Below are positions 3,001 through 27,228 of a DNA stretch of 64,000 bases, piece by piece. Positions within the stretch are counted from its first letter, which is position 1, and the number at the start of each line of letters is the position of its first letter. The position numbers and the translations under genes were made by a program. The stretch covers positions 684,501 to 748,500 of the forward strand of contig OX442320.1 in NCBI GenBank assembly GCA_949358305.1. Direction: 5' to 3'. Under the pieces are notes generated by a model. The model was not told where the DNA came from. It saw only the letters and a program-made list of their open reading frames with translations, and ran no database searches. Source of the DNA: Strigamia acuminata (taxonomy: Eukaryota; Arthropoda; Chilopoda; Geophilomorpha; Linotaeniidae).

Positions 3001-3193
3001 TTTCACAGGAAATCTATTTTCGAGAAGAGATCGAAGCTGTGAAAAACAAGACTGAAGTTGAGAGATCATCCCCTTTGAAAAATTTCGAATATTTCTTAGA
3101 TGAGGATGGACTTTTACGTTTGCGCAGCAGACTGAGATTGTCTTTGCTTTCATTTGACGAAAAATACCCGATTCTTTTACACAACGAAAGTTG
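3..3193 (+). pseudogene. BEL-A Gag-Pol, part 1 (zinc knuckles, protease, reverse transcriptase, RNase H)
   Basis: The frame is open from the window edge, so the first ATG at 81 is internal and the true start lies upstream. In order: a Cys/His-rich nucleocapsid region at about 186-380 with the CGGRHH signature of BEL Gag; a retroviral-type aspartic protease with the DPGSHRSF active-site motif near 535-565; a reverse transcriptase with the catalytic YMDD box at 1809-1820; and an RNase H with the FCDAST motif near 2330 and a downstream NPADLLTR motif near 2685. The protein copies the element RNA into DNA inside Gag particles. The RT looks slightly longer than usual just before the VPFG motif (about 1620-1690). 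The reading frame is cut at 3193 by Copia-1 and would run 11 codons into the copia LTR before a stop, so this copy is dead. Confidence 0.92.
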
Positions 3194-3779
3194 TGTAGCA
3201 GAGGAGAGCGGCGCAAATTCGGCGTGAACCGAAACGTGGAAGCGAATTATGGCCAAGATGGCGTCGTGCTGCACGCACGAACGTGTCGACGACGTTTTGC
3301 AAGGAAACGAACGACGGCCGCGCAGGAAAGCGCTTATATGCCGAAAAGACAAGACTTAACACTTGTTAAAACTATAAAATAAGGTTTAATAATAACATAC
3401 TTAACAATTGAGTCCCGAATGAATGAAAAATGGCGGAGCAGCTCGCTCTCGAGGTGGGCGCCATGTTGACGAGTTGGAAGAAGGAAAAATTGTACATAGC
3501 GACACCTTGTGTCGGTAATTGTAAACACATGACATAAAATTAAAGTGAATTAAACATTGTGACTAAATAAAGCATGATACTCCATGCTTAAAAATCAAAT
3601 ACAATTGTAAACATTGGAAATAAGCTATTTGGGATGTAAATAAACATTAAATCATTATATCAAATTATATAAAGACAAATTGGATTTGATATAAAATAAA
3701 TATCGGAATAAATGATTAGAATGTAACATAATAAGATTCTATGTCTCATCGACATATAAAATGGTCTTTTAGACCAACA
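3194..3779 (-). repeat. Copia-1 3' LTR (left copy)
   Basis: 586 bp, starting TGTAGCAGAGG and ending GACCAACA as read on the plus strand. It matches 9959-10544 apart from one substitution. Short ORFs inside it are present in both copies only because the LTR is duplicated. Confidence 0.95.
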
Positions 3780-3999: not shown

Positions 4000-6900
4000 T
4001 CAGAGTCGGAAGATCTTGGAGATTAACGACTTCAAACGTTCGGAACTAAGCCATTTGGTAAATATGTCCGCAACGTTTTGTTCACCGGATACTTTGTGAA
4101 GATCGAAACATCCCGCCGTATACCACTCTCGTAGCCAATGATATTTGACGCGGATATGCTTGGTCTTTGAATTTTCCACGTCATTCGAAGTAAACTGGAT
4201 AGCCGCGAGAGCGTCGGAATAGATAATCGGTCGGGATTGCCTGTCGAGAATCGGAAATTCGGTGTAAATGTTGTCGAGCCAGAAGGATTCCTTCACACAT
4301 TCCACCAGGGCGATAAATTCCGCTTCCATGGTGGAACATGCAACCGTTGACTGTTTTCGGCACGACCAGCCAATTGGCACATTTCCGATAAAGTTGATAT
4401 AGCCGCCGAAACTTAGAGACGTGGTTGCTTCGCTCGCCCATGACGCATCCGTAAAAGCCCACAGTTGGCTAGAATTACAGCCCGAAAGCTCGATACGATA
4501 GTCGATAGTGTTGGCCACATATTGAAGAACTTGGAGGAGGGCTCGGATATGCGTCTTGTCGTAACAGGTGTTGAATTGGCTTAGCGAAATAACCGAAAAT
4601 AAGATGTCGGGGCGTGTTCTCGACGCGAGGAATAAAAGTGAACCGATGAGAGATCGGTAAGGAAAGTCCGGTAGATTTTCGGTTGACCCCTTCACGAGCG
4701 TTGTCCCGGGTGTGACGGGGACCTTCACGAGGCGATTGATAGAGACCTCGAACTTCTTGACGAGCTTTGCAATGTAGGCGCGTTGCGTGATGAAGGTTCG
4801 ACCAGCGTCTCGAATGAACTCGACGCCCAATAGTCTCGTGATGGGACCAAGATTAACTATGTCGAATTTGGACGAAATAAGCTGAATGATCCGGGTTAAC
4901 ACGGTGTCGGAAGCGTAGAACAGTACGATGTCATCGACGTACACCAACATAACGGCACAATTGCCGTAAATGTACACACAATTGCACGCGGGCATCTTCC
5001 GAAAACCGAGAGCTCGAAGCGTTCCATCCAACTTTTCGTACCACTCCCTCCCTGATTGGTGAAGTCCGTAGAGGGATTTAACAAGCAGCCAGACGTTTGC
5101 GGGGTTCGAACAAGTTGCACCTGCGGGGATGCGCATATACACCTTGTGCTTCAGGTCCCCATACAGGTATGCACTTTTGACGTCGAGGTGAGCATCCTTC
5201 CATCCTCTGAGGACGACCAGAAGGCAGAAGAATAGCCGGATCAAGACGAAGTTTACGACCGGACTAAAAACCTCGTCGTAATCCACCCCGATGGTTTGGC
5301 GAAAACCTTGTGCGACGAGCCGAGCACGATAACGTGTTATCTCGCCGCTTAGATCCGTCTTCAGTTTGAAGATCCATTTACAGCCTAATACTGTAGTCTC
5401 GGGTGGCCTCGGAACTTCGACGTAGATCTGCCTTTCTTTGAATATTCCCAATTCTTCGTCAATGGCTTCACGCCATTTCGGAGCATCTTGAAACTTCGGA
5501 ATTTCCGCGTACGATGATGGTTCCGTACGGCAAAGATGAGCGGCATGTCGAGGACCGGGAATCGTGGGCAGTGTGTGCTCCATATTGCCGAAAAAGAAAA
5601 GTTCTGGATCGTAGGGGAGATTATTCATCGTGCAGAATTCCTCAACGTCCCGTCTCGAACGAAGTCGGAGATTAGGTTCGGGGAAATAATAGACATCGGC
5701 GTCTATACATCCAGGGCGTTGATCTTTTCGTAGATGTTCCTCCCGAATCCATCGTCTGAAGACTGTATCACCGCCAATATAACGCCAAAAGAAAGACGTT
5801 TTCCCGGCTGACGGTGCCGCAACATGAGTAGGGCCAGGAGGCAACGGTGATAAAGCTCCTTGATCGAATATTGGCATCATATGTTGCAAAATATTTCGGC
5901 CGTCTCTTCTGCGCGTTGTGACGAAACGAGTTGGCGAGCCAGGCGGTGAAAGCCCAGGAGAACTAGTTTGAGACGTTTCCGGTGAGACGTGTTGAGACTG
6001 AATCTGTTGCAACTCTGCCGCGTCCGGTTGAATTGCCTCATCAACAATCTGCCCAACATCTTCATCCGTATCCGGTCCTTCCTCTTGATAAAGGATTGGA
6101 TATGATGCTGATCGTCCCAAACTCGCAGAACCCGGTAATGCCAGTGCGCATGCATCTAACAACTGACGTTCAGGTGTATTAAGCGGGGAAATATGCACCA
6201 GTGGAATGGATATGGATTGCGAAACTGATCCGTTTCCATCATCATCATCGTCATCGTCGTCGGATGTATTCGAGGAATCCCCGTCAGTATCGGCTTTTGG
6301 CCAATCCAAATAGTGGACGTTGTCGTCGAATGACACGTGTTGTTGTTGGTTAACATCGGGTTCCTCGAAGATTTGATTGCGATGACCATTTTGACTTCTC
6401 AATGTCCTTTTATAAGACTGATGTTCATCAATGCGTACGTGAGTTGATTCCGTTACGCTATTGTCCACAGGATTCCATATGCGGTAACCACGTGTGCCTG
6501 TGGCGTAGCCTACAAGGAAACCCTCCCAAGCACGAGGATCAAGCTTTTTGCGTCCCGGTGCAGTAAAGTGCACCCAGCACTTGGATCCAATTTTCCTTAG
6601 GTGGCGCAAAGAAAGAGCACGCTGACGCCAAAGTAGGTATGGCACTTGGTTATTCAAACGGGAATGTGGACTTCTATTTTTAATGTAGGCGAAATTAACC
6701 GCGAGTTCAGCCCATAGACCTTCTGGAAGTTGTGTCTCTTGTATAACAGCTCTAATGTGGTCAACCATTGTCCGGTTAATTCTTTCGGCTGTGCCGTTCA
6801 TTTGAGGGCTTGACGGATTTGTTCGCTGCCCCTGGATCCCCTTTTCCTTCAAATACTGTTGAAATTCATTGGACATGAATTCGCCGCCTCTGTCAGATCG

Positions 6901-9018
6901 AATAGCTTTGATGCGCGTGTCCGCAACGCGCTCGACCCTGGCGACGATCTCCTTGAAGCACGAGAAAACTTGGGATTTTTGTGCCAAAGGGGTGATCCAA
7001 GTGTACCTCGTCGCGTCATCGATGACGGTGAAAACGAAGCGAGCGCCCCCAAACGAGGCTACCGGATACGGCCCCCACACGTCCATATGCAAAAGATCAA
7101 GGGGCTGAGATGTTGAAGGATGCAGATCCGGCTTGTGAGAAGCCCTGATGGATTTCGCAAGGCGACAGTCGTTGCACGCCAATTCTTGCGACACTTCCGC
7201 TGGTTCGAGTCCATACACTTTGTCATTATTGGCTAACAACTTCAACGCGTTGGTGTACAAATGTCCAAGGCGACTATGCCACAAACCGGTCGCATCTTTC
7301 ACAGAGGCAGGGTTGGCAAGAGCTTTCTTCGGGAATTGGACGGGATTAGCAATAACCTTCTTTTGTGATTGAGAAGGATTACCAGCGGATTGGATGGGAG
7401 AAGGAGATGTGACGGGTGGAGGACTGCTGGGGATATGCTGGAGAGCATTAGCATAGGAATAGATTGGAGGGTTTAGGTGGACAGGTAAAGATTGTGTCAT
7501 GAATGTAGGATTGATGGCGGCCGAAATTGACGTCGGGACCTCTGTCGCAGGTAATGGCGGCATCTGAATCCTAAAATCCGAAATGTTCTGTTGCGATGAC
7601 TTCTGCCTTTTCGGCTTCGGAATATTCACGAAGTCAACTTCCGTTGTGACAAATGTCTGTACGGGTGATTGCTGAATCATTGGTGAAGTCGTAGTGGCAA
7701 CAGTTGGATTTGTACACAACCCATCCACATAGTAAAGTCCTCCTTTCTCTTTTGCTTTCAGAACGGCACTCGTGATGTCCGTTTCATATATATGGACTTC
7801 TCCATTGAAAATATGAATATGGTGACGGGTCTTATCAATTTTGGACACTGATATTAAATTCGCCTCAAAATTGGGCGCATAAAGAACGTTCGTCAGTGTC
7901 ACATTGCAGTGAGAATTGTCCACACGTGTTTGTAGTTGAACACTTCCTCGACCAGTCACTTGTGATTTTCCTTGGCCCAGTTCGATGTCAAAAGGGACAA
8001 TATTCACAAAATCGGAAAACCACGATCGTATGTGGGAAACATGGTCTGTGGCACCACAATCAACTATCCATTCGTTGGATTGCATCAGGTGGGCAACAGG
8101 ACGTTCAACAATTTGCGGAGCATTCACGAAAAACACCGCGTTGCGAACCGGATGAGAGCTTCCTCTCGGGCGATTGTCCTCAGGTTTGGGAGCCGAGTTC
8201 TTGCCACGCTTCTTGCTTTTGCTGCGAGAACGTTGGAATGTCGCCGTGGGTTGTTGATTCCGGTCGTCACGCTTCGGGTATGGGCACTTGTTAGCATAGT
8301 GGCCCATCTCTTGACAGTTGAAACATCTGACTTGCGACAATGGACGACGTGGACGTGACCCTTGACGAGATTGTTGTGGGTTCTGGGCAGACGCGTGAGC
8401 CGATGATGAAACATTGTGTAAACCCACTGATTTGAGGCGAAGATATTCAGAAACCAATTGTTCGGACACTTTAGTCGGCGTAAAATTAGCTTCAGGCCAG
8501 TTATAGATAGCAAACGTGGCCTGTGCATATTCTGAAGGTAGACGATGTAAATACTGGTAAGCATGATGCTTGTCCGACACTTCTTCCTTCATATCCCTGA
8601 GTTGGCGTACGTGGAGATCGACACGACTGACGAAATCGACCATGTCTTCGTTCGGTTGAAGATGTAGGCCCAAAAATTGCCATCTCATGGCTGCTTGACG
8701 AGCCAGAGAGCTGGGAGCAAAGATTTTTGACAAAATGTCCCAAGCTTCTTTCGGGGTATTGGCGTTGTCCAGTGTGGAGCGTTTCGCCTCGCTCACGTGG
8801 CAATAAATGTGTCCCAACGCCTTGTCCTTATTTAATCTGTATTTCTCAGTCTCTTTCGGGGTCAGTGTCAGTAAATGTTCGGCCTCTTTTTCCTCGGTGA
8901 CATGTCTCCAGAGGCCTTCTGACTTTAGGAGCATGCACATGGCACGACGCCATGATTCATAGTTGTTGATTCCTAACATCGGACACTTTCCAACCGTTGG
9001 CTCCACGTATTTGGACAT
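4000..9018 (-). CDS. Copia-1 Gag-Pol polyprotein (1672 aa)
   Basis: A single uninterrupted frame with the copia domain order. N-terminal Gag (residues 1-230) is followed by a CCHC zinc knuckle, CFNCQEMGHYANKC, near 232-246. An aspartic protease with VDCGATDH near 317-325 follows; DCGA replaces the more usual D-S/T-G. A pre-integrase HHCC domain lies near 578-615. The integrase core has D in HMDVWG (about 643), D in RSDRGGEF (about 706) and E in GTAERINR (about 743). Reverse transcriptase carries WIFKLK near 1210 and the catalytic YVDD near 1360. RNase H has FTDASW near 1525 and MEAEF near 1563. Gag builds the particle, and the enzymes copy and insert the element. Having no frameshift or stop, it is probably expressed as one polyprotein. 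The ATG at 9018 fits because the Gag domain begins right after it. Confidence 0.95.
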   Translation of the reverse strand: MSKYVEPTVGKCPMLGINNYESWRRAMCMLLKSEGLWRHVTEEKEAEHLLTLTPKETEKYRLNKDKALGHIYCHVSEAKRSTLDNANTPKEAWDILSKIFAPSSLARQAAMRWQFLGLHLQPNEDMVDFVSRVDLHVRQLRDMKEEVSDKHHAYQYLHRLPSEYAQATFAIYNWPEANFTPTKVSEQLVSEYLRLKSVGLHNVSSSAHASAQNPQQSRQGSRPRRPLSQVRCFNCQEMGHYANKCPYPKRDDRNQQPTATFQRSRSKSKKRGKNSAPKPEDNRPRGSSHPVRNAVFFVNAPQIVERPVAHLMQSNEWIVDCGATDHVSHIRSWFSDFVNIVPFDIELGQGKSQVTGRGSVQLQTRVDNSHCNVTLTNVLYAPNFEANLISVSKIDKTRHHIHIFNGEVHIYETDITSAVLKAKEKGGLYYVDGLCTNPTVATTTSPMIQQSPVQTFVTTEVDFVNIPKPKRQKSSQQNISDFRIQMPPLPATEVPTSISAAINPTFMTQSLPVHLNPPIYSYANALQHIPSSPPPVTSPSPIQSAGNPSQSQKKVIANPVQFPKKALANPASVKDATGLWHSRLGHLYTNALKLLANNDKVYGLEPAEVSQELACNDCRLAKSIRASHKPDLHPSTSQPLDLLHMDVWGPYPVASFGGARFVFTVIDDATRYTWITPLAQKSQVFSCFKEIVARVERVADTRIKAIRSDRGGEFMSNEFQQYLKEKGIQGQRTNPSSPQMNGTAERINRTMVDHIRAVIQETQLPEGLWAELAVNFAYIKNRSPHSRLNNQVPYLLWRQRALSLRHLRKIGSKCWVHFTAPGRKKLDPRAWEGFLVGYATGTRGYRIWNPVDNSVTESTHVRIDEHQSYKRTLRSQNGHRNQIFEEPDVNQQQHVSFDDNVHYLDWPKADTDGDSSNTSDDDDDDDDGNGSVSQSISIPLVHISPLNTPERQLLDACALALPGSASLGRSASYPILYQEEGPDTDEDVGQIVDEAIQPDAAELQQIQSQHVSPETSQTSSPGLSPPGSPTRFVTTRRRDGRNILQHMMPIFDQGALSPLPPGPTHVAAPSAGKTSFFWRYIGGDTVFRRWIREEHLRKDQRPGCIDADVYYFPEPNLRLRSRRDVEEFCTMNNLPYDPELFFFGNMEHTLPTIPGPRHAAHLCRTEPSSYAEIPKFQDAPKWREAIDEELGIFKERQIYVEVPRPPETTVLGCKWIFKLKTDLSGEITRYRARLVAQGFRQTIGVDYDEVFSPVVNFVLIRLFFCLLVVLRGWKDAHLDVKSAYLYGDLKHKVYMRIPAGATCSNPANVWLLVKSLYGLHQSGREWYEKLDGTLRALGFRKMPACNCVYIYGNCAVMLVYVDDIVLFYASDTVLTRIIQLISSKFDIVNLGPITRLLGVEFIRDAGRTFITQRAYIAKLVKKFEVSINRLVKVPVTPGTTLVKGSTENLPDFPYRSLIGSLLFLASRTRPDILFSVISLSQFNTCYDKTHIRALLQVLQYVANTIDYRIELSGCNSSQLWAFTDASWASEATTSLSFGGYINFIGNVPIGWSCRKQSTVACSTMEAEFIALVECVKESFWLDNIYTEFPILDRQSRPIIYSDALAAIQFTSNDVENSKTKHIRVKYHWLREWYTAGCFDLHKVSGEQNVADIFTKWLSSERLKSLISKIFRL

Positions 9019-9958: not shown

Positions 9959-10544
9959 TGTAGCAGAGGAGAGCGGCGCAAATTCGGCGTGAACCGAAAC
10001 GTGGAAGCGAATTATGGCCAAGATGGCGTCGTGCTGCACGCACGAACGTGTCGACGACGTTTTGCAAGGAAACGAACGACGGCCGCGCAGGAAAGCGCTT
10101 ATATGCCGAAAAGACAAGACTTAACACTTGTTAAAACTATAAAATAAGGTTTAATAATAACATACTTAACAATTGAGTCCCGAATTAATGAAAAATGGCG
10201 GAGCAGCTCGCTCTCGAGGTGGGCGCCATGTTGACGAGTTGGAAGAAGGAAAAATTGTACATAGCGACACCTTGTGTCGGTAATTGTAAACACATGACAT
10301 AAAATTAAAGTGAATTAAACATTGTGACTAAATAAAGCATGATACTCCATGCTTAAAAATCAAATACAATTGTAAACATTGGAAATAAGCTATTTGGGAT
10401 GTAAATAAACATTAAATCATTATATCAAATTATATAAAGACAAATTGGATTTGATATAAAATAAATATCGGAATAAATGATTAGAATGTAACATAATAAG
10501 ATTCTATGTCTCATCGACATATAAAATGGTCTTTTAGACCAACA
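9959..10544 (-). repeat. Copia-1 5' LTR (right copy)
   Basis: 586 bp, the partner of 3194-3779. As the 5' LTR of a minus-strand element it should carry the promoter. It is AT-rich and ends on the outside with GACCAACA followed by the AGTTG duplication. Confidence 0.95.
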
Positions 10545-10549
10545 AGTTG

Positions 10550-10984
10550 GGTAACTAGACTAATTATTCGCAAGACTCATCTTGATCTCATGCATGGAGA
10601 TTTGAGTGAAACGCTTTACCGAATTCGTGAGAAATTTTGGGTTCTCCGAGGACGCAGGACCATTCAGACTGTGATAAGAGAATGTTCCGTTTGCAGAAGG
10701 ACTAAACTTGCAAGAAATAATCCGTCTACTGGAGAATTACCGAAAGAAAGAGTAACCCCAGCAGCTCCTTTTCAACACACCGGAATCGATCATTTAGGAC
10801 CTATTTTTGTGGGAAAGGACAAAAAACGATTGAAGAAAACATACATTTTATTATTCACTTGTATGGTTACGCGAAGTTTACATCTCGAAGTGTCCGAAGA
10901 TTTATCCACTGAGAAATTCTTATTGGCATTCAGACGATTTTGTGCTCGTTACGGTTGTCCAGCAAAAGTCTTCTCGGACGACAG
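10550..10984 (+). pseudogene. BEL-A Pol, part 2 (integrase zinc-binding domain and start of catalytic core)
   Basis: Continues the BEL-A frame exactly after one copy of the AGTTG duplication. The translation has the H-H-C-C pattern of an integrase zinc-binding domain (histidines near 10578 and 10592, cysteine pair CSVC near 10687). It then enters the catalytic core with the first aspartate in GIDHLGP and the second in FSDD just before 10984. The frame is broken inside the core by the TK-1 insertion. Apparent coding beyond 10984 reads into the TK-1 LTR and is not part of the gene. Confidence 0.9.
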
Positions 10985-11949
10985 TGTTTCGAGCAACAGA
11001 AAGGAGGAAAGAGAGACCACAACTGCTCGTCAATTTGATAGTAGTTTGATTTTATGTGTTCGAAAATGTAAAGAAGAGTTACTAATTTCGGTCTTATAAT
11101 TGTATTATTTATTTAGCAAATATCTAATCTTTTTCTGTTGTAATAGGAATTTTACATGTCTTTTTGTGTGCCAATTTTCAGTAAAGACAATGTTTGTTAG
11201 GTATTTTATCTCTTAGAATGACAAGGTCAAGGTATAGGAATTTTTAGTCTTGTTTTCCAATGTTTTCATGTTATGTTTACCTATTTCTAATTCTTGTCCT
11301 GTTCCCAGTTCAGTTGTGAAGGCGGAATGATGGGTTTGAAGCATCTGAGTTGCTTTAAAAGTGCATTGGAAAAGAAGGAATTGTTAATTTTGTAATGGAT
11401 TGCAATTAATGCATTTTTACAGTGTATTTGACTTGTTTTAGATGCGTTATTTGCATATTTAGTTAAGTTTATTCCTTTTCTATTTGTTGTAATTCTTTCC
11501 AATGGTTTCTGTTAATTTTAGTTGATTTTATCTCTATTATGAGGCACAATGCAAGCTTTAACTTATGTTATTTATGAATTTAGTCACTAGGTGCCTCGTG
11601 AATTTGTTGTTGCTATAGAATTGTTGTTGTTATGAAGTTGTTACACTCTTGTTATGAAGAATTAGATGTTGTTAAGTTAAATTTGCCTCCATGTTAATAT
11701 TTTGAAATGATTAAAAGCATTATCTGGATTTTTCTACACAAAGCTTTATTTTATTCAACATCCAACATGTGTGAGTAGGGAGATTTAACCCCAAACTCCC
11801 TGGAGCAGCTTCCTTCAAGAGCAAGGGCAGAAACTCAAGTTACTACACTTCTCCTCTCAGCTAAGCAAAGTATAGGCCTATGGGAAATTTGCCAATAATT
11901 CCCCACCGCGTTACAACTCGTCGCATCACGGCAGTGGCGAGTTGCAACA
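10985..11949 (+). repeat. TK-1 5' LTR (965 bp)
   Basis: Begins TGTTTCGAGCAACAG and ends GAGTTGCAACA. It matches 16202-17166 with no difference found by eye. It is AT-rich and has no coding content; a 71-residue ORF on the minus strand is copied in both LTRs only by virtue of the repeat. Confidence 0.95.
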
Positions 11950-11953
11950 TTTT

Positions 11954-11967
11954 TGGTACCGTGACCC
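11954..11967 (+). promoter_or_regulatory. TK-1 primer-binding site
   Basis: TGGTACCGTGACCC starts four bases after the LTR. TGG is the complement of a tRNA CCA end. TK-2 (TGGTACCGTGAACC) and ncLTR-1 (TGGTACCGTTGACTC) have nearly the same site, so all three use the same or a very similar primer tRNA. The tRNA end implied, CACGGTACCA, is one base from that of animal tRNA-His as I recall it; I regard the assignment as tentative. Confidence 0.7.
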
Positions 11968-12373
11968 AAGGATTTTGTTGTTAACAACCAGGATTTTCGT
12001 CCAGTTCTTCCAGTGGATTTCAGTGCACGTCATTGCATTTTTAGCCAGGTGTGTGACGTCGATTTCACGGTGATTTGCGTGTGTGTTCCCGACTTCACAG
12101 TGAGGCAATGTGTGGCATCTAGTTCGCAGTAAGCAGTGTGTGGTGCCGATTTTCGTGGTGTGAAGTGTGTGACAACACGTTTTTTGATTTATTTCCACTG
12201 GATTATTGTCGCCAATTGCGACAGAAGTGTGTTTGTGCTGTGTCATCCTTCGCAGTCGTCAGGGAGTTGATTCGTCAGTGGATTTTATGTCAAGTGTAAC
12301 GAGTTCGGAGTCCTTCTACTGTGGCGGTCAACATAAGGAGACAAGCAAGCAATTTCCTGGTCAACAATTTGAG

Positions 12374-13120: not shown

Positions 13121-16108
13121 ATGGCAACTGCGGCTGGTTTGACCACGGAAGCAGCGGAAGAGAAAGAAACACAATGGCAAGCCAAGGCCCAAGGAGCAGA
13201 GGATCTGCTCTCGACATCTGCAAACGTTCTCGACGGGGGTGAGCTTGAAGCTCTCCACGCAACAATAGATGCGCAGTTGAGTGACCTTATTGATGAGCTC
13301 GCTGTCTTTAAAGACAAGATAGAACGTTCAGATTACCTGCTTAGTTTGAGACGTCTCGAAGACATTAGGACGAAGGTCAATCTTCTTAAGCAAAGGACGA
13401 AATTTTCAAAACAGATGCAGGATAAGTTTGGGGCCCATCCAGGCGGAAATACGCTAATGAATTCTGGATTTCTGAACAACTCATCGATAATCTCAAGGAA
13501 GACTACAAAGCTTCCAAAGCTGACATTGCAGAGATTCGACGGGAATCCGATGGAGTATAAGAGCTTCATGGATATGTTTTCAACCACAGTTGACGCCGAT
13601 GCCGAGTTATCGAACGTCGAAAAACTTCAATATCTTAAATCAAGCTGTATCGGGGAAGCTGAAGTGGCGATTAAGTCGTACCCACTTACTAACGATTCGT
13701 ATTTAATGGCACTTAGCAGTTTAGAAGGACTTTTTGGGTCAGAAGTAGCCCAAAAGAACGCTCTGGCGAGGAAAATTCGTGAAGCCGAAGCAGTTAAAGA
13801 TTTGTACCCAATCCAGCCGGTAAAATCTCTATTGACGTCCCTCACCGGTGCTTTCCGAACATTAGAACAGTTGAAGTTCCCAGTTACGACTACTGGATTA
13901 TTTCTAATCCCGGAATTATTGCGGAAGTTTCCACCGGAATTGGGAAGACGATTTCATAGGATTTACAAAGGAAACGTGGAAAACGTTAATTTATTTCTCG
14001 AATTTGTAGCAAGCGAAGTCAGAGTAGCAGAATTATCAGACGATAGCGTATTTACCAGTCAGAAAGTCACCAAGAAGAGTGAGAAACCAGCAACTAGAGA
14101 GCAAAAAGAAGAATTACGAGGGACCATGTCATCTTGCGCGGTTGCGCAAAATACGTCATTCGGGTCCAATACGAAAGAATTATTCAAACCAAAATCAGGT
14201 CCAGTCCGGAAATTGATCTGTGCCTTCTGTGAAGGAGATCATTTCAACAATAATTGCGACGCAAATCTGGAAGTTTCGGAGAAATACGACATCGTTAAGC
14301 GAAAACGTCTATGCTTTAATTGCCTGAGACCAAGCCATACAGTGGGTAACTGCCCTGTGAAATTTTGTTGCCGATCATGCGGTGGTCGACACCATTCTTC
14401 AATTTGTAACAGAGGTCATGCGGAAAAGCCAACTGATACCAAAGAAGAGAACGTCTCCGCCAACGTCTCGTTGTCGGTCTCAAGTGACGTCCAGCTAATG
14501 GTTTTCACCGCATTGTTCGTCCGAAAGAGTGGCGAAACAATCCCAGTTCGTGGATTACTCGATCCGGGTAGTCATCGTTCATATATTACGAAGCGGTTAG
14601 CAAAGAAATTACACCTAAACAAGATTGAGACGTATCACACCATGACCCAGTGTCTGCTGAATAAAGAACCAGTTCCTACAACTCATGACGTGTTTCGATT
14701 CGAGTTGCAGTCTCGTCACGACAAGCAGAAAGTGTCTGTATTTGCTCTTGATACCGACACACTTCCCAATATAAAGGGAGTGGTAGATCACCAGACGCTG
14801 CAACAAATCAAGTCGTTTAATCTTGAGATGGCAGAACCACATCCCTCCGTGTCGGATGAGGTAGATGTCTTGATCGGAAGCGGAGCATGGTGGAAAATAA
14901 TTCAAGCGGGAACGAAGAGAATTAGTCCAGAATTAGGAATGATGAAAACAGTTTTTGGATGGATTTTAAACGGACGAATTAACTCAAAAGAGCCTTCCAT
15001 CTACAAAGACGATATCTCACTGGGAGATGTATCGTGTATGGCGATCGATTCTGGAAAGAAGATGACTTTCAACACTTCAAAAAAGGACAAAGGCGGGTTT
15101 GGACAGGCGAATTCCACATCAATGCCCGACGAGAAAAGCGAAAAGGGTGGAGTACAAGCAAAAGGCGTCATCGCTTCTCGTTTTGCCGCGAGCCGCTCTA
15201 GCGAGCTGGAGGTAAGGCGTCCTGACGTCCCCATCGAATTGGAAATGGATGGAAAGCGGACGTTTAAAGGGATAAGGTCGGGCAAGATGGCGATTTCTCA
15301 GAGTCCTGACACACTGGAGTCTACGGAAAAGAAAGGAGAATTTCCGAAAAATTTCAAAAAAGATGAAGAAAAGGGTTTAAGTAAATGGAGGAAGATATTG
15401 AAATGGAGTCGCAAGAAACTCACCAATTCGCACAGAAGATCAAATGCAGTCACAAAGGCCACGGGAAATATACATTTAGTAATTGGCCCAATGTTTTCTG
15501 GAAAAACTACTGCTTTACTTAATGTAATCCGAAATGAAGAAGAAAATTCTTGCCTGCTTGTTAAGCATTTGACAGACGTTAGATATAGTAAAGATGAAAT
15601 GGTTAGCCACACCGGACAACGACGTCCAGCGGTTCGGGTCGCGTCGTTACAGGAAATCAAGAAAATTGCGGAGTCGGTCAAGACGATAGGTATCGACGAA
15701 GGGCAATTTTTCGAAGACATCGATTCGTTTTCCGACAAAATGGCGAACGAAGGAAAGAATGTAATAATTGCCGCTTTAAATGGTGATTTTAAGAGACAGG
15801 AATTCAAGGCAGTATCTAATCTCATTCCACTAGCGGAAACTATTGTCAAACTTCATGCCAAATGCCACTTTTGTGGAAACCAAGCGTCGTTCACCAAACG
15901 AATATCGGGTGAAACGCAAGTTCAGGTTGTGGGAGGAGAAGAGAGATACAAGCCAACGTGTCGTACCTGTTTTCAGAAATCAATCAATTCTATAGAAGTC
16001 AAGAGAAAGCTAATTAATGGAGCGGCACATTTAAGTTTAGCGATTTTGAATCGAAGATTACCTCCATGGGTGGCCAGTTTGATCCGCAAAAAATTGCGCT
16101 TACCTTAA
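13121..16108 (+). CDS. TK-1 Gag-protease-thymidine kinase polyprotein (995 aa)
   Basis: Residues 1-130 are a coiled-coil-like acidic N-terminus. The BEL Gag core (DUF1759 type, starting LPKLTLQRFDG) runs about 131-300. A Cys/His nucleocapsid with CAFC, CFNC and CGGRHH lies near 366-430, and an aspartic protease with LLDPGSHRSY near 477-488. From about 783 a type-II (TK1-like) thymidine kinase follows: P-loop GPMFSGKT near 788, the DEGQFF motif with the catalytic glutamate near 860, AALNGDF near 877, and two zinc-binding cysteine pairs, CHFC (about 912) and CRTC (about 946). TK1 enzymes convert thymidine to dTMP with ATP. The last 40 residues form a basic tail with NRRLPPW that cellular TK1 lacks. 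The start at 13121 matches the TK-2 start, both MAT followed shortly by KAQGAEDLL. I saw no stop or missing catalytic motif, so the kinase is probably active; AALNGDFKRQEF departs from the usual ALDGxFxRKPF. Confidence 0.93.
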   Translation: MATAAGLTTEAAEEKETQWQAKAQGAEDLLSTSANVLDGGELEALHATIDAQLSDLIDELAVFKDKIERSDYLLSLRRLEDIRTKVNLLKQRTKFSKQMQDKFGAHPGGNTLMNSGFLNNSSIISRKTTKLPKLTLQRFDGNPMEYKSFMDMFSTTVDADAELSNVEKLQYLKSSCIGEAEVAIKSYPLTNDSYLMALSSLEGLFGSEVAQKNALARKIREAEAVKDLYPIQPVKSLLTSLTGAFRTLEQLKFPVTTTGLFLIPELLRKFPPELGRRFHRIYKGNVENVNLFLEFVASEVRVAELSDDSVFTSQKVTKKSEKPATREQKEELRGTMSSCAVAQNTSFGSNTKELFKPKSGPVRKLICAFCEGDHFNNNCDANLEVSEKYDIVKRKRLCFNCLRPSHTVGNCPVKFCCRSCGGRHHSSICNRGHAEKPTDTKEENVSANVSLSVSSDVQLMVFTALFVRKSGETIPVRGLLDPGSHRSYITKRLAKKLHLNKIETYHTMTQCLLNKEPVPTTHDVFRFELQSRHDKQKVSVFALDTDTLPNIKGVVDHQTLQQIKSFNLEMAEPHPSVSDEVDVLIGSGAWWKIIQAGTKRISPELGMMKTVFGWILNGRINSKEPSIYKDDISLGDVSCMAIDSGKKMTFNTSKKDKGGFGQANSTSMPDEKSEKGGVQAKGVIASRFAASRSSELEVRRPDVPIELEMDGKRTFKGIRSGKMAISQSPDTLESTEKKGEFPKNFKKDEEKGLSKWRKILKWSRKKLTNSHRRSNAVTKATGNIHLVIGPMFSGKTTALLNVIRNEEENSCLLVKHLTDVRYSKDEMVSHTGQRRPAVRVASLQEIKKIAESVKTIGIDEGQFFEDIDSFSDKMANEGKNVIIAALNGDFKRQEFKAVSNLIPLAETIVKLHAKCHFCGNQASFTKRISGETQVQVVGGEERYKPTCRTCFQKSINSIEVKRKLINGAAHLSLAILNRRLPPWVASLIRKKLRLP

Positions 16109-16201
16109 GGAGTCATTAGGGAGCTGATCCTAGGTGAATGAGAAGTTTTCAGATTGCTAAGAGGTTCTTCTTCACCTTCTTTTCTTTTCGGCGGCAATCT
16201 C
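16109..16201 (+). promoter_or_regulatory. TK-1 3' untranslated region and plus-strand primer region
   Basis: A short tail with a pyrimidine run (CTTCTTTTCTTTTC) followed by GGCGGCAATCTC immediately before the LTR. The run is the pyrimidine strand, unlike a classical polypurine tract. The GGCAAT block is shared with BEL-A and TK-2. Confidence 0.55.
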
Positions 16202-17166
16202 TGTTTCGAGCAACAGAAAGGAGGAAAGAGAGACCACAACTGCTCGTCAATTTGATAGTAGTTTGATTTTATGTGTTCGAAAATGTAAAGAAGAGTTACT
16301 AATTTCGGTCTTATAATTGTATTATTTATTTAGCAAATATCTAATCTTTTTCTGTTGTAATAGGAATTTTACATGTCTTTTTGTGTGCCAATTTTCAGTA
16401 AAGACAATGTTTGTTAGGTATTTTATCTCTTAGAATGACAAGGTCAAGGTATAGGAATTTTTAGTCTTGTTTTCCAATGTTTTCATGTTATGTTTACCTA
16501 TTTCTAATTCTTGTCCTGTTCCCAGTTCAGTTGTGAAGGCGGAATGATGGGTTTGAAGCATCTGAGTTGCTTTAAAAGTGCATTGGAAAAGAAGGAATTG
16601 TTAATTTTGTAATGGATTGCAATTAATGCATTTTTACAGTGTATTTGACTTGTTTTAGATGCGTTATTTGCATATTTAGTTAAGTTTATTCCTTTTCTAT
16701 TTGTTGTAATTCTTTCCAATGGTTTCTGTTAATTTTAGTTGATTTTATCTCTATTATGAGGCACAATGCAAGCTTTAACTTATGTTATTTATGAATTTAG
16801 TCACTAGGTGCCTCGTGAATTTGTTGTTGCTATAGAATTGTTGTTGTTATGAAGTTGTTACACTCTTGTTATGAAGAATTAGATGTTGTTAAGTTAAATT
16901 TGCCTCCATGTTAATATTTTGAAATGATTAAAAGCATTATCTGGATTTTTCTACACAAAGCTTTATTTTATTCAACATCCAACATGTGTGAGTAGGGAGA
17001 TTTAACCCCAAACTCCCTGGAGCAGCTTCCTTCAAGAGCAAGGGCAGAAACTCAAGTTACTACACTTCTCCTCTCAGCTAAGCAAAGTATAGGCCTATGG
17101 GAAATTTGCCAATAATTCCCCACCGCGTTACAACTCGTCGCATCACGGCAGTGGCGAGTTGCAACA
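16202..17166 (+). repeat. TK-1 3' LTR (965 bp)
   Basis: Second copy of the TK-1 LTR, same termini as 10985-11949. It is followed by the ACAG duplication and then by the BEL-A integrase frame. Confidence 0.95.
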
Positions 17167-17170
17167 ACAG

Positions 17171-17861
17171 TAAAACCTTTGAAAAAGGAAGTACACAAAT
17201 TCAGTCATGGGGAAAACTGATTGGCCGTTCGGACATAAAAACATTTCTGTCTGAGAAAAGGATTGTATGGACATTTATCCCTCCGCTCTCACCGTGGATG
17301 GGAGGAGCTTGGGAGAGACTAGTCCGTTCAGTAAAGGATAAATTGCGGAAAACTTTATTGAGAAACACTGTGGATTTAGAAACTTTACAAACCTTAGTTC
17401 TTGAGATCAGCTCTGTGTTGAATTCTCGACCTTTGTCGTATGTACACGAATATATAGACGGCGGCAGAATCCTTTCACCTGAAAACTTTTTAACGGGAGG
17501 TATGCCGAAATACATGATCAACAAGACCTTGAATGCAATCAAGAAAAGTGACCTGAGAAAACTCGACAAGAAAAGAAGACAGTTTATTTGGGATTTTTGG
17601 AGTATATGGAAACACAGTTACTTGATGCAGTTAAGAAACTTTTATGAGACTAAAGGAGATAAATCTTTTCAAAACCCCAAAATTGACCAGATTGTTCTTC
17701 TTGAAAAGATGGGAACCAACCCTTACTTTTGGCCTCTTGCCAGGATAAAACAAGTTTTTCCTGGCGATGATGGACTAATTCGCATCGTTAGTGTTGTGCT
17801 TCCCGATGGAAGAGAGTTGCGTCGATCTGTAAAGCATATCAGAGCCCTTGAACTTGATTGA
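17171..17861 (+). pseudogene. BEL-A Pol, part 3 (rest of integrase and C-terminal domain, stop at 17859-17861)
   Basis: Resumes the same frame immediately after the right ACAG duplication of TK-1. Near the start lies the PWMGGAWERLV segment, which carries the catalytic glutamate of the D-D-E triad. A long tail follows with the LNSRPLSY motif and the PLARIKQVFPGDDGLIR segment typical of the C-terminal domain of BEL/Pao integrases. The stop codon is a TGA. An ATG at 17097 that lies in frame is inside the TK-1 LTR and is not a real start. Confidence 0.9.
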
Positions 17862-17919
17862 TGTGTGTTTTGCAGACTTCTCTCATCTCTCTTCTCTCTT
17901 TTTCTCGCTGGCAATTCGT
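17862..17919 (+). promoter_or_regulatory. BEL-A sequence next to the 3' LTR (plus-strand primer region)
   Basis: The interval between the Pol stop and the LTR is a pyrimidine-rich run of CT repeats followed by CTGGCAATTCG directly before the TGTTGC start of the LTR. The same layout, a pyrimidine tract then GGCAA plus three bases, precedes the 3' LTR in TK-1, TK-2 and ncLTR-1. It therefore marks a shared plus-strand priming region, although it is not a classical polypurine tract. Confidence 0.55.
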
Positions 17920-19404
17920 TGTTGCAAACAACGTGGAATAATTTAGAAACTGCTTTTATTACCAATTTTTTGTCTTATTAAATAGTAAGAGTGTTGTTTG
18001 ATTTTTGCGTAATATTTTTTCAATCTTACCTTTCAGGTTTTCTGTCCAATTAAACCTATTGTGTATTTTTAGTGTTTTGATGCATTTAATTTGATAGCTT
18101 TGAACTTATATTAATTTATAATGTTGTTTGTTTATCTTATTTCTTGCATTTATATGTTATTTCAGTGATTTGTGAAGATTTCGTTTAGTGTCTGAGCATT
18201 TTCAGTGCATTTTTCGGTGTCTACCGCACTTGTGCAGTGCGCGTGACGTCACTTTTCTGTTTACAGTTTACTTGCGGTTCAAACTTTGAACCATTCGTTT
18301 AGCACTTTTAGATTCGTTTGGGATTTAAAAGATAATTATTCTAGACTAATATGGGTCTTATCTTTCGATTGGAATGCATGAAAAGTGTCTCAGATGCTTC
18401 GTTCGGTGTCTACGAGTGTTCGTTGTCGGGCGCCATAAAAGCGCACCCGAGAGTGATCGTCTCGTTCGCCTTACGTTTGCATAATGGTTAATTCGATTTA
18501 ATTTGTGTGTTTTGACTTGAGATTTACCTTATTTCTTATAGTATTAATTATTGTCGTTGGTATTCATCTCTTTACTCAAACCTGTAATTCAAATCTGAGT
18601 GTTTGCCGCCAATGTTGAGTTTACCGGACGCCATGTTGGATTTTACCAATGATTTGTAAATGCTTTATTTCGTTTTGCTTTTATATTTCATTTTGTGTGT
18701 ATATTATTTCATTCTGTTGTTATATGGCGTATATTCTTTACCATTTAAGTGATTTTAGGTGATTCTCAATTCAAACTTGATAATTACGTCATTTTGCTTG
18801 TCTCTGATTGGTTAGGCCCAATCGTCTGCTTAGCGAACACTGTTTTCGCTCTTTTCGCATTGTTTTGATTAACGAATCTTGTTGTTACGATAGACTTTAT
18901 TATTCCTGAGTTTTTTGTGCCCATTTTGAGCTATTACACATTACTTTTAGTACATTTCTCGTAATTTGTTGTCTTTGCTTGAAATTGCATTTCCTCCGTT
19001 TCCATAGCAACGGAGTATTTCTTTATTGTAATTTGCCGACAATTGGTTTGGCGTGTGCCATCCTATTATAAACGTGTAATTAGCTCAGTTGCCATTTTTC
19101 TATTTGATTAAATTAGTCGTGTTAATGTTAACTCTTACCTTTTCTGCTTTTGACCTGTTTTCAATGTGTCTTGAGTAGAGAACCATTTTCCCAGAATGGC
19201 CAATGGATCAGCAAACACTTGGATACCATGCAAAAGTGTTTACAACAGTTAAACCTTCATGTAACAGGAGATTTTGAGGCGAATCAAGTGCATTTCAACA
19301 CGGTATACGTACGAATTTCACTATACGATCGTTTGAGTTTGTTGGCGGGAGTTTCGAATCGCCACATCTCAGTTCTTCTCTGTTCCTGTTGACTGACCGC
19401 AACA
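17920..19404 (+). repeat. BEL-A 3' LTR (LTR-A, 1485 bp)
   Basis: Begins TGTTGCAAACAACG and ends GACCGCAACA, with canonical TG...CA termini and no coding content. It is homologous along its length to the solo LTR-B: shared blocks include a GTGACGTCA-like stretch near 18245, CCATAAAAGCGCA near 18433, and an end block with GGCGTGTGCC near 19050. The CATAAAAG sequence upstream of a GC-rich stretch is a plausible TATA-type core promoter. Satellite DNA starts at once after the LTR. Confidence 0.85.
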
Positions 19405-21236
19405 ACTGTGATGAGATTAAAAGTCTATTCTCCCAAATCATTGCTTGGATGTTTCTAAAACTGACATTGGAGCCTTCTACTAAGGTTTAAACACTATTTC
19501 TGAACATTCAGAGACATTGGTCTTGTGGTGTTTGTGTTAAGTCAACTGTGATAAGATCAAAAGTCTATTCTCCCAAATCATTGCTTGGATGTTTCTAAAA
19601 CTTACATTGGAGCCTTCTACTAAGGTTTAAACACTATTTCTGAACATTCAGAGACATTGATCTTGTGGTCTTTGTGCTAAGTCAACTGCAATGTGAAATA
19701 AGCTCAAAATTTTTTTTTCAAAATTTATTGCTTGGATGTTGCTAAAATTTACATTGAAGGCTTCTACTAAGGTTTAAACACTATTTCTGAACATTCAGAG
19801 ACATTGGTCTTGTGGTGTTTGTGCTAAGTCAACTGTGATGAGATCAAAAGTCTATTCTCCCAAATCATTGCTTGGATGTTTCTAAAACTTACATTGGAGC
19901 CTTCTACTAAGGTTTAAACACTATTTCTGAACATTCAGAGACATTGGTCTTGTGGTGTTTGTGCTAAGTCAACTGTGATGAGATCAAAAGTCTATTCTCG
20001 CAAATCATTGCTTGGATGTTGCTAAAACTTCTCTTGAAGTCTTCTACTAAGGTTTAAACACTATTTCTGAACATTCAGAGACATTGGTCTTGTGGTGTTT
20101 GTGCTAAGTCAACTGTGATGAGATCAAAAGTCTATTCTCTCAAATCATTGCTTGGATGTTTCTAAAACTTACATTGGAGCCTTCTACTAAGGTTTAAACA
20201 CTATTTCTGAACATTCAGAGACATTGATCTTGTGGTCTTTGTGCTAAGTCAACTGCAATGTGAAATAAGCTCAAAATTTTTTTTTCAAAATTTATTGCTT
20301 GGATGTTGCTAAAACTTACATTGAAGGCTTCTACTAAGGTTTAAACACTATTTCTGAACATTCAGAGACATTGGTCTTGTGGTGTTTGTGCTAAGTCAAC
20401 TGTGATGAGATCAAAAGTCTATTCTCCCAAATCATTGCTTGGATGTTTCTAAAACTTACATTGGAGCCTTCTACTAAGGTTTAAACACTATTTCTGAACA
20501 TTCAGAGACATTGGTCTTGTGGTGTTTGTGCTAAGTCAACTGTGATGAGATCAAAAGTCTATTCTCCCAAATCATTGCTTGGATGTTTCTAAAACTTACA
20601 TTGGAGCCTTCTACTAAGGTTTAAACACTATTTCTGAACATTCAGAGACATTGGTCTTGTGGTGTTTGTGCTAAGTCAACTATGATGAGATCAAAAGTCT
20701 ATTCTTTCAAATGATTGCTTGGATGTTTCTAAAACTTACATTGGAGCCTTCTACTAAGGTTTAAACACTATTTCTGAACATTCAGAGACATTGGTCTTGT
20801 GGTGTTTGTGCTAAGTCAACTGTGATGAGATCAAAAGTCTATTCTCGCAAATCATTGCTTGGATGTTGCTAAAACTTCTCTTGAAGTCTTCTACTAAGGT
20901 TTAAACACTATTTCTGAACATTCAGAGACATTGGTCTTGTGGTGTTTGTGCTAAGTCAACTGTGATGAGATCAAAAGTCTATTCTCCCAAATCATTGCTT
21001 GGATGTTTCTAAAACTTACATTGGAGCCTTCTACTAAGGTTTAAACACTATTTCTGAACATTCAGAGACATTGGTCTTGTGGTGTTTGTGCTAAGTCAAC
21101 TGTGATGAGATCAAAAGTCTATTCTCCCAAATCATTGCTTGGATGTTTCTAAAACTTACATTGGAGCCTTCTACTAAGGTTTAAACACTATTTCTGAACA
21201 TTCAGAGACATTGGTCTTGTGGTGTTTGTGCTAAGT
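19405..21236 (+). repeat. 140-bp satellite, block 1 (plus orientation, about 13 monomers)
   Basis: Head-to-tail monomers of 140 bp, recognised by GGTTTAAACACTATTTCTGA and GTGTTTGTGCTAAGTCAACT, with occasional 147-bp variants in which one segment is replaced by an A/T-rich stretch near CTCAAAATTTTTTTTT. Starts of AACTG at 19544, 19684, 19831 and 19971 show the spacing. It is non-coding. The block is bounded exactly by the end of LTR-A and the start of LTR-B and is inverted relative to the other satellite blocks. Confidence 0.95.
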
Positions 21237-21996
21237 TGTTGCAAGACAGCGTAGAAATTGTTGTGCTATTTTATTGTCAATATTTTTACCATTTACTTTG
21301 AGTTGATTAAAATCTTTAAGTGTTTTAATTTCCTTTGCCTAATTGGTATTTTTTCACTTTTCAGATTTTTATTGCTTATTAAAGTGTTTTGACTTGATTT
21401 TTATTCATACTTTTCAATATTTAATAGTGTTTATGCTTTGTATTGATTTCAAATATCTTATTCCGTGCATTTATTGACTTATTCACTTGTTTTTTGAGAG
21501 TTTGTGTTGATTCCGAACTGTTTTGGTGCAAATATCGTTCCCTGGCATACATTTGCGATGCTAGTGACGTCATTTTTCTGTTTCCCGTAAAGTTACGGTT
21601 CCGTCTTCTAACCTTTTGTTTAGTACTTTTCAAATCTCTTGGAATTTTATTAAGCATTCGTTTAGACTAATTCAAGCATGCTGTTTCTATCTTGATGCAT
21701 CAAAACTGCTTTGGAAGTTCCGTTTGATTGGTTTGAACGTTCGTTTCCGTCTGCCATAAAAGCGCAGCCGGGAATGTTCGTTTGGCCGATAAATTCGTAT
21801 TTATTCAATCTGTGTATTTTATTCCGATGTTTTGTGAAGAGAATTGATAATTATTCTTATAATTTAATCGATACTTTATTGATTATTTACATTTAGTGTT
21901 TTTACATTCATTTTACGTGTAGTTTTGCCGCCGATGTTATGTTCGCCGGACGCCATGTTTGATCCAACACCTTTGTTATGTTCGCCGGTCGCCATG

Positions 21997-23354
21997 TGTT
22001 TCTGGCAAGGTCGCAGGCGACAACCAGGCCAGAAGGAGGGGCGGCAATACTTGACTGCTGCTTGGCTAAAATTGATACACAGAAGTTGGCCAAAGACTTG
22101 AAGAAATGCAAACACTGGACTTGAACTTGCTGCTTCACATGATGATCTGCCACTGGTGAGTTCAAGGAGGAGGAAGGAGGATTTTTCTACTCACTGCACA
22201 TTGCTTTCTGGTTGTATAGAGAAATGAGACTTGGAGAGAAATAAAAAGCAACCATTTTATTCTCTAAATTCTTAACAAGACTACTACAATTGAATCACGA
22301 GGATATTACAAAGAAGTCACACTTTAACAATAATAAGAAACAACAAGTGTAACTATCTCCACATTGTATAAGGACACTTGCACTTAAAGTTACAGAGGTC
22401 TCTAAGTGCTTGTAAAGAGAAATAAGTACTGCTGGCACAACAAAACTACCGTAGAAGTTAATAGTTGAAAACACATAAGCCTAACAGCAAGTATTTGACA
22501 TTAAATGCAAAAGTATACATTAACAACAGTCTCTAACCACAATGCTCGTTGAGAACTAAATTATTCACTCTAAAACACACTGAACAACTCATAAAATAGA
22601 GAAAAGAATAAGTAAAGACATTTTAGACCAATGAGCTGGCAACTTTACAGTAAGTGCAGAAGTTAAGTTATAAATCAACACAGATAAATCTTAAACTTAA
22701 CACTTTTACATTGCATAATAATTAAGTGATTAATTATTAATCAGAACCCACAAAAACTCTTTGGGATTAAACATTTTCTCCTCTCTTTACAGATACAAGT
22801 AGACCACTCCCACAGTAATGGCCGACAATGTAAACAGAGATCACTTGCAGGAAGATAGAAAGGCTTGAAATTAGCTCACTAGACAGGCTACACACAATCT
22901 AAGTTAACAAAACGCTTAATTGGTTAGTAATATACAGAAAACAAACAGAAATTGATTGAAACAGCTTAAAACTGATAATAACATACATTTCTCATTCTAG
23001 TACCCTTTTGCTGTCTGAGAGCATCATTACACCTTGTCACTACATTGACAGTAGTGGACTGGAAACAGGAAAACACTTGGAAACATCAAAACATGCATAA
23101 CACAGGTAAACAAGATAGAAAATAAATTCTAAGTGGATAAATAACTAATGTAAAAACTCTTTTCTTCCCAGATTTATCCGGTCAGATCAACCAGTACTGA
23201 GAAATTCACTCAAACTAACTCAAAGAAGACTTATATTCAAATAAGTGTCTAATTAAATTCCCAATCTAAGATAAATATTAAAAACCCTTTTTAATAATTC
23301 CAGATGACTAATTTTTAAGACGTTTAGCAGCTTTCCTTTATGTTGCTAGCAACA
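21997..23354 (-). repeat. TK-2 3' LTR (left copy, 1358 bp)
   Basis: Plus-strand ends are TGTTTCTGGC and GCTAGCAACA. The inner end, TGTTGCTAGCAACA (23341-23354), is a perfect 14-bp palindrome that forms the 5' terminus of the LTR on the minus strand. It has no coding content. Confidence 0.95.
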
Positions 23355-23389
23355 TAGATTGCCGGCGAAAAGAAAGTGCGAACAACCCA
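23355..23389 (-). promoter_or_regulatory. TK-2 plus-strand primer region
   Basis: Read on the minus strand: a pyrimidine-rich CACTTTCTTTTC followed by GCCGGCAATCTA against the LTR. It matches the equivalent block of TK-1 (GGCGGCAATCTC). Confidence 0.55.
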
Positions 23390-26407: not shown

Positions 26408-27210
26408 AATCCTCACCGAGAAATGAAGAATTCAAAGATCAGTTCAGGATTCAAACTCAACTTAACTGACTAAATTGGTTAACAAGAAATTGTCTAATTC
26501 TTTTACACTCTAGGATTTACTGAACACACAAAAACAGGATGGATATCCACAAACTGTTAACAGGATTGAAACACACGGGATGTTAACAGGATTGGCAAAT
26601 TAACCCCCAAAATTCAATAATTAAAGGTAATTGACAATTCTCTTATTTTCACAATTGAGTTTCTGACTAGATACTCGTTTTAAATTGGGATACCAACACT
26701 AAAGCTTGGTATTATTCACTAATTCACTGGATATTCTCTAAATTCCACAAACTGGAATCGAGAATTTATTCAAACTGTTAAGACTTAAACTTCTTCTCCC
26801 CCCAACTACACCAGTTTCTAATCAAAAACTCTTTTTGAAATAATTACAGCAGCAAATTCGGATATTATTCTATTTAAATAATAATTCTTAATAATTATTT
26901 CTTCAAATCTTCTTGTAGGATGTACATTGCGTTGTGTTTGGAATTGATTGTCGTGCAGGATCGCTCGTACTCTCGAAGCCTTGCTTGATCCAAGTTGAAA
27001 AACATCTTGACCATCTTGACAATTTGAGAATCCAACTTGAAAAACCCACTTTTTTGCCTGTGAAAGGCGGACGAGAGCATACACTTCACTGTAGTGGCAC
27101 AGCTTCAATGGCACTTTACACATAAAAGCTTTGCACAGCTTGAGAACAAAACCCACTGATGAATTTTGCAGCACACATGAAGGTCCACTGAGATAACTGG
27201 AAGAAATCCT
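26408..27210 (-). other. TK-2 5' leader
   Basis: About 800 nt, AT-rich, without a recognised gene. A 64-codon frame (26895-27089, minus) passes through the conserved motif and stops 10 codons after its ATG, as similar short frames do in TK-1 and ncLTR-1. Confidence 0.5.
26924..26939 (-). promoter_or_regulatory. Conserved leader motif, copy in TK-2
   Basis: AAACACAACGCAATGT on the minus strand, followed by ACATCC. It lies about 290 nt after the LTR. Identical to the motifs in the leaders of TK-1 and ncLTR-1. Confidence 0.6.
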
Positions 27211-27211
27211 T

Positions 27212-27225
27212 GGTTCACGGTACCA
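27212..27225 (-). promoter_or_regulatory. TK-2 primer-binding site
   Basis: TGGTACCGTGAACC on the minus strand, three bases inside the 5' LTR. It is almost the same as the TK-1 site. Confidence 0.7.
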
Positions 27226-27228
27226 AAT

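Follow-up and report, generated by a model that had tools for sequence, protein, structure and literature searches.

Pol-less BEL/Pao-type retrotransposons that encode a Gag-protease-thymidine kinase fusion in the genome of Strigamia acuminata

A 64,000-nucleotide stretch of the Strigamia acuminata genome (contig OX442320.1, positions 684,501 to 748,500; hereafter the window) contains a retrotransposon, element A, whose single open reading frame joins the Gag and protease (PR) of a BEL/Pao element to a thymidine kinase (TK). Our analysis suggests that element A belongs to a family of pol-less BEL/Pao-type long terminal repeat (LTR) retrotransposons in which reverse transcriptase (RT), RNase H and integrase have been replaced in frame by a TK1-type kinase, and which act as metabolic satellites; we put the probability of this reading at roughly 0.6. 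A second, diverged Gag-PR-TK element, element B, lies on the minus strand of the window (21997-28586). The parts of the reading that can be followed in the sequences themselves are the single Gag-PR-TK frame, recent retro-integration, two diverged families of many copies, the grouping of the element TKs and purifying selection.

The frame of element A (13121-16108, plus strand) is uninterrupted and encodes 995 amino acids, within an element of 6,182 bp. A preliminary description of the window had read it as a BEL-type Gag and protease joined to a TK1-type kinase, and these assignments are confirmed: the frame consists of a BEL/Pao Gag, followed by a retropepsin-like protease and then, at full length, a thymidine kinase domain of TK1 type. 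Pfam places the Gag domain (PF03564, DUF1759) at residues 139-282 (13535-13966; E = 4.8e-15). The PF00265 profile search, which the preliminary description had proposed as a check, finds TK at residues 782-951 (15464-15973) over profile positions 1-176 of 176, at 186.8 bits (cut-off 20.6; E = 4e-55). A Cys/His-rich zinc-knuckle region is seen in the sequence at about residues 360-430 (14198-14410) and is 64.8% identical in amino acids between A and B. The protease region, with its LLDPGS stretch, spans residues 445-640 as modelled (14453-15040). Its profile matches are weak (PF13650, E = 7.6e-4, and PF05585, E = 0.0054, both below their cut-offs); in the AlphaFold2 (AF2) model it has a pLDDT of 81, and the top Foldseek matches are Ddi1 and retroviral retropepsins, the best of them modest (E = 7.8e-4, TM 0.33/0.46, root mean square deviation (rmsd) 6.8). 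The frame ends in a tail of about 40 residues past the Pfam TK domain (15974-16105), for which AF2 predicts two helices and which is 50% identical in amino acids between A and B.

The kinase assignment is supported by motifs, alignment and fold. The P-loop GPMFSGKT, the DEGQFF motif and both zinc CxxC pairs, all named in the preliminary description, are present in the TK of element A. The AF2 model of the TK piece has a pLDDT of 89.2 and a pTM of 0.80, and Foldseek matches it to human TK1 (1xbt/2wvj; TMt 0.95, rmsd 1.2); the sequence also matches 18 TK sequences in the PDB, with the human enzyme at the top. The element kinase shares its fold and main motifs with animal and poxvirus TK1-type kinases, at 36-51% identity among the matches listed. 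It differs from them in that the listed kinases are not joined to Gag, and in the loss of a few residues that are invariant among them.

The ends of element A are those of a recent insertion. Self-alignment defines a 5' LTR at 10985-11949 and a 3' LTR at 16202-17166, both on the plus strand, starting with TG and ending with CA, and identical at all 965 of 965 bases; they are bordered by a perfect 4-bp target-site duplication, ACAG/ACAG (10981-10984 and 17167-17170). Identical LTRs and a perfect duplication had also been claimed in the preliminary description, correctly. When the 150-base flanks of element A are joined without the element and one copy of ACAG, a single frame through a BEL integrase results: element A sits inside the integrase of another, resident BEL. 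This resident BEL carries, by Pfam, a protease (DUF1758), Peptidase_A17 and RT at 81-3227 (plus strand; the RVT_1 match is just below its cut-off) in addition to Gag, and is of the candidate pol-donor type. Its integrase is split by element A into a 5' part (Integrase_H2C2, 10506-10984) and a 3' part that includes DUF5641 (17167-17861), both on the plus strand. Its 1485-bp 3' LTR (17920-19404, plus strand) is 99.66% identical to its own 5' LTR, which lies upstream of the window, in locus L051, and it has a 4-bp target duplication, ACTG. The Gag-PR pieces of A and B are 35-41% identical to the resident BEL, in keeping with a BEL-type protease, and 36-38% identical to the resident BEL Gag in L026, as compared with 20-28% for database BELs. 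The resident BEL is itself inserted in a satellite of about 140 bp, found at 19403-21236, 29376-31966 and 52830-60129.

No RT, RNase H or integrase was found between the LTRs of element A by Pfam on the frame or in the list of open reading frames. In addition, that list contains no other sense frame of at least 100 amino acids between the LTRs, and a hidden pol was dismissed as an explanation on this ground; the antisense frames within A measure 113 and 183 amino acids, with a further one of 106 that extends into the end of the 5' LTR. Since it has none of the three enzymes, the element is unable to reverse-transcribe its own RNA and depends on a pol from elsewhere. It is a pol-less derivative with a BEL Gag-PR and not an autonomous BEL. 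The preliminary description had called it a retrotransposon that encodes its own TK, which holds in that the element is BEL-type and its Gag-PR-TK is fused and selected; the description had missed that there is no pol and that RT has to be borrowed, and it had not noted element B.

Pol is most likely supplied by resident BEL elements with similar signals. The primer-binding-site region of element A, assigned by position (11950-11992, plus strand; TTTGGTACCGTGACCCAAGGATT), is nearly the same in element B and similar in the resident BEL. Both A and B carry a TGGTACCGTGA-type motif where the 5' LTR ends, a putative primer site by position that may correspond to a complement of tRNA-His; a tRNA scan of the 64-kb window found no tRNA. 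A pyrimidine-rich stretch that contains GGCAAT directly precedes the 3' LTR in the resident BEL (17861-17919), in A (16143-16201) and in B (23355-23413). In both this motif and the primer-site stretch the resident BEL resembles A and B, and of its LTR ends (TGTTGC..GCAACA) the right one matches A and the left one B. The similarity of LTR ends, primer site and pre-3'LTR motif, together with the Gag-PR identity, makes a BEL-type pol acting in trans the best guess.

The LTRs of element B, both of 1358 bp and on the minus strand (5' LTR at 27229-28586, 3' LTR at 21997-23354, by self-alignment), differ by one mismatch, and flank comparison shows a target-site duplication, CCATG, at 21992-21996 and 28587-28591. 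Its Gag-PR-TK frame encodes 1005 amino acids from the ATG (23390-26407, minus strand); Gag and TK were called by Pfam and the protease by alignment to A, and the TK domain (PF00265, 23597-24100, minus strand) was also recovered in the genome profile search described below. A and B are 55.7% identical in the amino acids of TK, 56.0% in Gag, 64.9% in the protease and 28.4% in the linker before TK. In TK the proportion of synonymous differences (pS) is 0.756 and that of nonsynonymous differences (pN) is 0.296, and in Gag, protease and TK alike synonymous change has reached saturation. The ratio of nonsynonymous to synonymous rates (dN/dS) was estimated between closer copies. In TK it is 0.125 (confidence interval (CI) 0.07-0.19) between A and a related copy, A2 (L002), and 0.20 (CI 0.10-0.38) between B and B2, an open piece of L027. 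The linker just upstream of TK gives 0.38 in the A pair and 0.72 in the B pair, and the carboxy-terminal tail gives 0.29 and 0.26, respectively. To judge from these ratios, the TK domain is under purifying selection.

These figures bear on the possibility that TK is a passenger, picked up by chance and without a job. In maize Bs1 and in the gag-onc retroviruses, a pol defect goes together with a fusion of Gag to a captured gene, and a host-type gene fused to Gag in place of pol is a hallmark of such transduction. The many copies could moreover stem from the recent spread of one event, and some residues that are invariant in other TKs have been lost. However, TK retains 55.7% identity between A and B, with its P-loop, DEGQFF and CxxC pairs, after synonymous change has become saturated, and its low dN/dS in both pairs stands beside a linker that has fallen to 28%. 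Unselected cargo is disfavored by these dN/dS values, and we regard passenger capture as quite improbable. Bs1 itself, according to the part of that study covered here, has captured host gene sequence inside an LTR element (PMC13317346). It differs in carrying partial pieces of host genes, whereas the elements described here carry a whole enzyme domain that is selected in two diverged families.

The number of copies was estimated by a PF00265 profile search of the 237.5-Mb assembly, which scored 150 matches among 205 candidates. The list holds the best candidates only and so favors intact copies. By hand count, 84 of the 150 fall within open frames as long as those of Gag-PR-TK elements (995 amino acids, n = 32; 1002, n = 5; 1009, n = 13; 1013, n = 34), which bears out the search for further Gag-TK fusions in the source genome that the preliminary description had proposed. 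Seven of these were seen whole (A and B in the window and five in L021-L025) and seven more in part (L005-L010, L030), the rest being assigned by frame length alone. Eight further matches, in frames of 333, 346, 633, 638, 702, 792, 814 and 1022 amino acids (a stop interrupts the one of 1022), appear to be shortened or broken copies, those of 638, 702 and 792 by length alone. The Gag-PR-TK element has apparently multiplied into dozens of copies. The other 58 matches form, mostly by frame length, three groups of stand-alone TKs: T (5), S (13) and U (40). These groups (loci L011-L020, L028 and L029) are multi-copy and lie within repetitive DNA; the alignment of two U copies consists of five blocks at 96-99% over 8.5 kb, and Pfam on nine frames near stand-alone copies gave nothing above a family cut-off.

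Ten further A copies were examined at their ends. The two LTRs of a copy show no mismatch in eight cases (one of them over 936 aligned bases) and one mismatch in two, and for the eight copies whose LTRs were compared with that of the window copy, the comparison shows 1 to 41 mismatches. Nine of the ten have perfect target duplications, of 4 bp except for one of 5, so that perfect duplications of 4-5 bp are found in 10 of 11 copies when the window copy is included; from these we judge that copies have moved despite the missing pol. The A copies are distributed over contigs C1, C5, C9, C13, C27 and C72, each with its own flanks and LTR pair. A chance or assembly fusion at a single locus is ruled out by the two families and by the privately flanked copies on six contigs. 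More generally, copies could have multiplied by segmental duplication or assembly artefact instead of by mobility. Tandem copies that share an LTR at L021, L025 and L027 would suit this explanation, as would the four of the ten A copies with both flanks in the 140-bp satellite; yet flanks differ, nine of the ten duplications are private, LTR pairs are near-identical and the interrupted integrase frame is restored on joining, and we find the explanation scarcely credible. On the evidence of their termini, the examined A copies are recent, separate retro-integrations. In the tandem Gag-TK arrangements, the two primer sites are 5.2-5.3 kb apart.

The origin of the element kinases was examined in a tree of 127 rows, which left out 3 of 121 homologous proteins that do not have the P-loop pattern and 4 of 13 rows from the own genome (near-copies or a fragment). 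The four element TKs form one group with support of 99/95, and do so in 100% of 200 bootstrap trees against five other own-genome TK rows. They are joined first by five rows from groups S, T and U, also of this genome, the combined group having support of 100/94. Separate from them is a branch of 80 rows (100/99) in which the named members are animals. Large DNA viruses also carry TK, and a poxvirus-derived TK was considered and rejected: the six poxvirus rows come together on a branch (100/98) that does not include the element TKs. The deep placement of the element TKs is unsure because the branches are long. One capture from a host-lineage TK would be the simplest reading of the tree. If, instead, A and B had acquired TK separately, as a recurring solution, the three other multi-copy TK groups in the genome could have been donors, and the poor conservation of the linker would find an explanation. 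Against this stand the single group of element TKs, the same fusion position in A and B, and the carboxy-terminal tail, which is common to A, B and A2 and missing in the three aligned rows of S, T and U; we consider separate captures very unlikely.

Similar elements were looked for in protein databases, viral contigs and the literature. In word-limited searches, no Gag-TK fusion was found among 5.8 billion proteins. The whole 995-residue frame retrieved 18 proteins with BEL domains, none with TK, among the best 7992 candidates scored. The TK part, searched against proteins of about 547-1741 amino acids, gave one match among 904 candidates, an ankyrin-TK protein of Blattella; TK alone gave 694 matches, and among the 120 listed a nematode TK and then animal TK1s lead. 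A single-protein scan of viral contigs found none, and an alignment scan of viral contigs found eight distant TK loci at 27-38% identity. The preliminary description had also stated that it knew of no described LTR retrotransposon carrying TK, and no such element appears in the proteins and literature searched: among the matches listed from titles and the starts of abstracts in the open-licence PMC set, a scope outside which Repbase and most subscription papers lie, there is no TK-bearing retroelement. The sections covered of the paper on the giant element Teratorn report TK as absent (PMC5601938), and the words 'kinase' and 'dUTPase' do not occur in the portion covered of a review of BEL/Pao elements in animals (PMC3118150), nor 'kinase' and 'thymidine' in that of an annelid survey (PMC8556966). 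The pol-less BEL derivative with TK fused to Gag-PR is real, mobile and selected, and was not found described in the databases and literature searched.

Several known systems resemble the Gag-PR-TK elements in part. With BEL/Pao elements (Belpaoviridae) they share the PF03564 Gag, the zinc-knuckle region, the retropepsin-like protease, LTRs and a 4-5 bp target duplication, and element A is inserted in, and related to, a resident BEL. They differ in having TK where RT, RNase H and integrase would be, and in having no polypurine tract right at the 3' LTR. TR-GAG elements are non-autonomous, Gag-only LTR elements mobilised in trans; they are alike in their Gag without pol and their recent LTRs, but are not known to carry an added enzyme, whereas PR and TK are kept here. 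The International Committee on Taxonomy of Viruses (ICTV) profile of Belpaoviridae lists gag, pol and env-like genes only (PMC8742986). Retroelements that encode a dUTPase (retroviruses, and rotifer, planarian and fungal LTR elements), as far as the sources covered describe them, are similar in carrying an enzyme of pyrimidine-nucleotide metabolism, often next to the protease (PMC5408684, PMC6431247). Theirs stands beside pol domains, whereas the Gag-PR-TK elements encode a kinase and have lost pol.

Retroviruses counter low deoxynucleotide pools and uracil by means of dUTPase and by fighting SAMHD1. We propose that element RNA would be packaged in particles made of Gag-PR-TK and of Gag-Pol from a resident autonomous BEL, whose RT and integrase would copy and insert the element in trans. 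The element protease may release the kinase, which would lie in or near the particle and turn thymidine into thymidine monophosphate (dTMP), raising the supply of the triphosphate (dTTP) for cDNA synthesis in cells that contain little host TK1. In this way the element would serve BEL elements as a metabolic satellite. A benefit of dTTP to reverse transcription is plausible, would fit the selection on TK and is the most likely reason for its upkeep. The full proposal, in which satellites parasitise BEL pol, feed dTTP into shared particles and help themselves, and possibly the helper, in low-nucleotide cells, is offered tentatively, as a possibility and not the probable outcome.

Several observations weigh against the reading of these elements as metabolic satellites. 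No autonomous element that shares the LTR came to light, in work that did not include a genome-wide donor search, and the resident BEL, which we infer to be of the donor type, differs in LTR sequence. No polypurine tract lies directly 5' of the 3' LTR in element A, and the same is true of the resident BEL. The tenth further A copy, on C72, has an imperfect duplication, TCTC/TCAC. Synonymous change between B and B2 is uneven (pS of 0.18 in TK and 0.35 in protease), which hints at mosaic copies and makes the per-domain dN/dS rough. Catalysis, expression, packaging and benefit of the element kinase are inferred. Of 37 columns that are invariant in 38 other TKs (A and B excluded), A keeps 32, having lost the start Met, E21, R24, R28 and D54 (numbering of the aligned piece), and B keeps 31, having lost the start Met, F15, S16, E21, R24 and R28. 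For the A kinase, the missing start Met is explained by the fusion; the helix that follows the P-loop has lost E21, R24 and R28 in A and B alike. With these losses normal kinase activity is likely, not certain.

The lost residues also suit a different use of the domain, as an oligomerising or nucleotide-binding part of Gag. TK1-type enzymes are nucleotide-binding tetramers, and the kinase stands carboxy-terminal to Gag-PR with a conserved helical tail. The P-loop lysine, DEGQFF and the zinc pairs are kept, however, and scaffolding alone need not keep these; a non-catalytic role is in our view unlikely. If the metabolic satellite reading is true, nucleotide salvage would be a selected trait in retrotransposons, and one TK lineage would have spread through several repeat families of one genome. 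A retrotransposon in which selection maintains TK would demonstrate that retrotransposition can be limited by the supply of thymidine, and would offer a natural test system. It would demonstrate, too, that an LTR element can exchange all of pol for a metabolic enzyme and yet go on moving, repeatedly and recently.

The last contig of the assembly, 15,068 bp long, is mitochondrial; its frames are open under genetic code 5, and no less so under codes 4, 9 and 13. As read from these frames, nd1, nd4 and nd5 run in the direction opposite to that of the cox genes, an arrangement known from arthropods. Over the first 6 kb no Rfam match reached a gathering score; at a looser setting there were two rRNA matches, on the nd1 strand. 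Other features of the window itself include two Copia elements. The polyprotein of one (35816-40687, minus strand) is intact and has a Pfam methyl-CpG binding (MBD) domain at residues 1039-1094 (E = 1.8e-10); the Copia at 4000-9018 has no MBD match at 1e-3. A run of 200 N at 30446-30645 is probably an assembly gap. Finally, overlapping frames of repeated short peptide units at 34624-35193 and 42337-43129 are probably non-coding tandem repeats.

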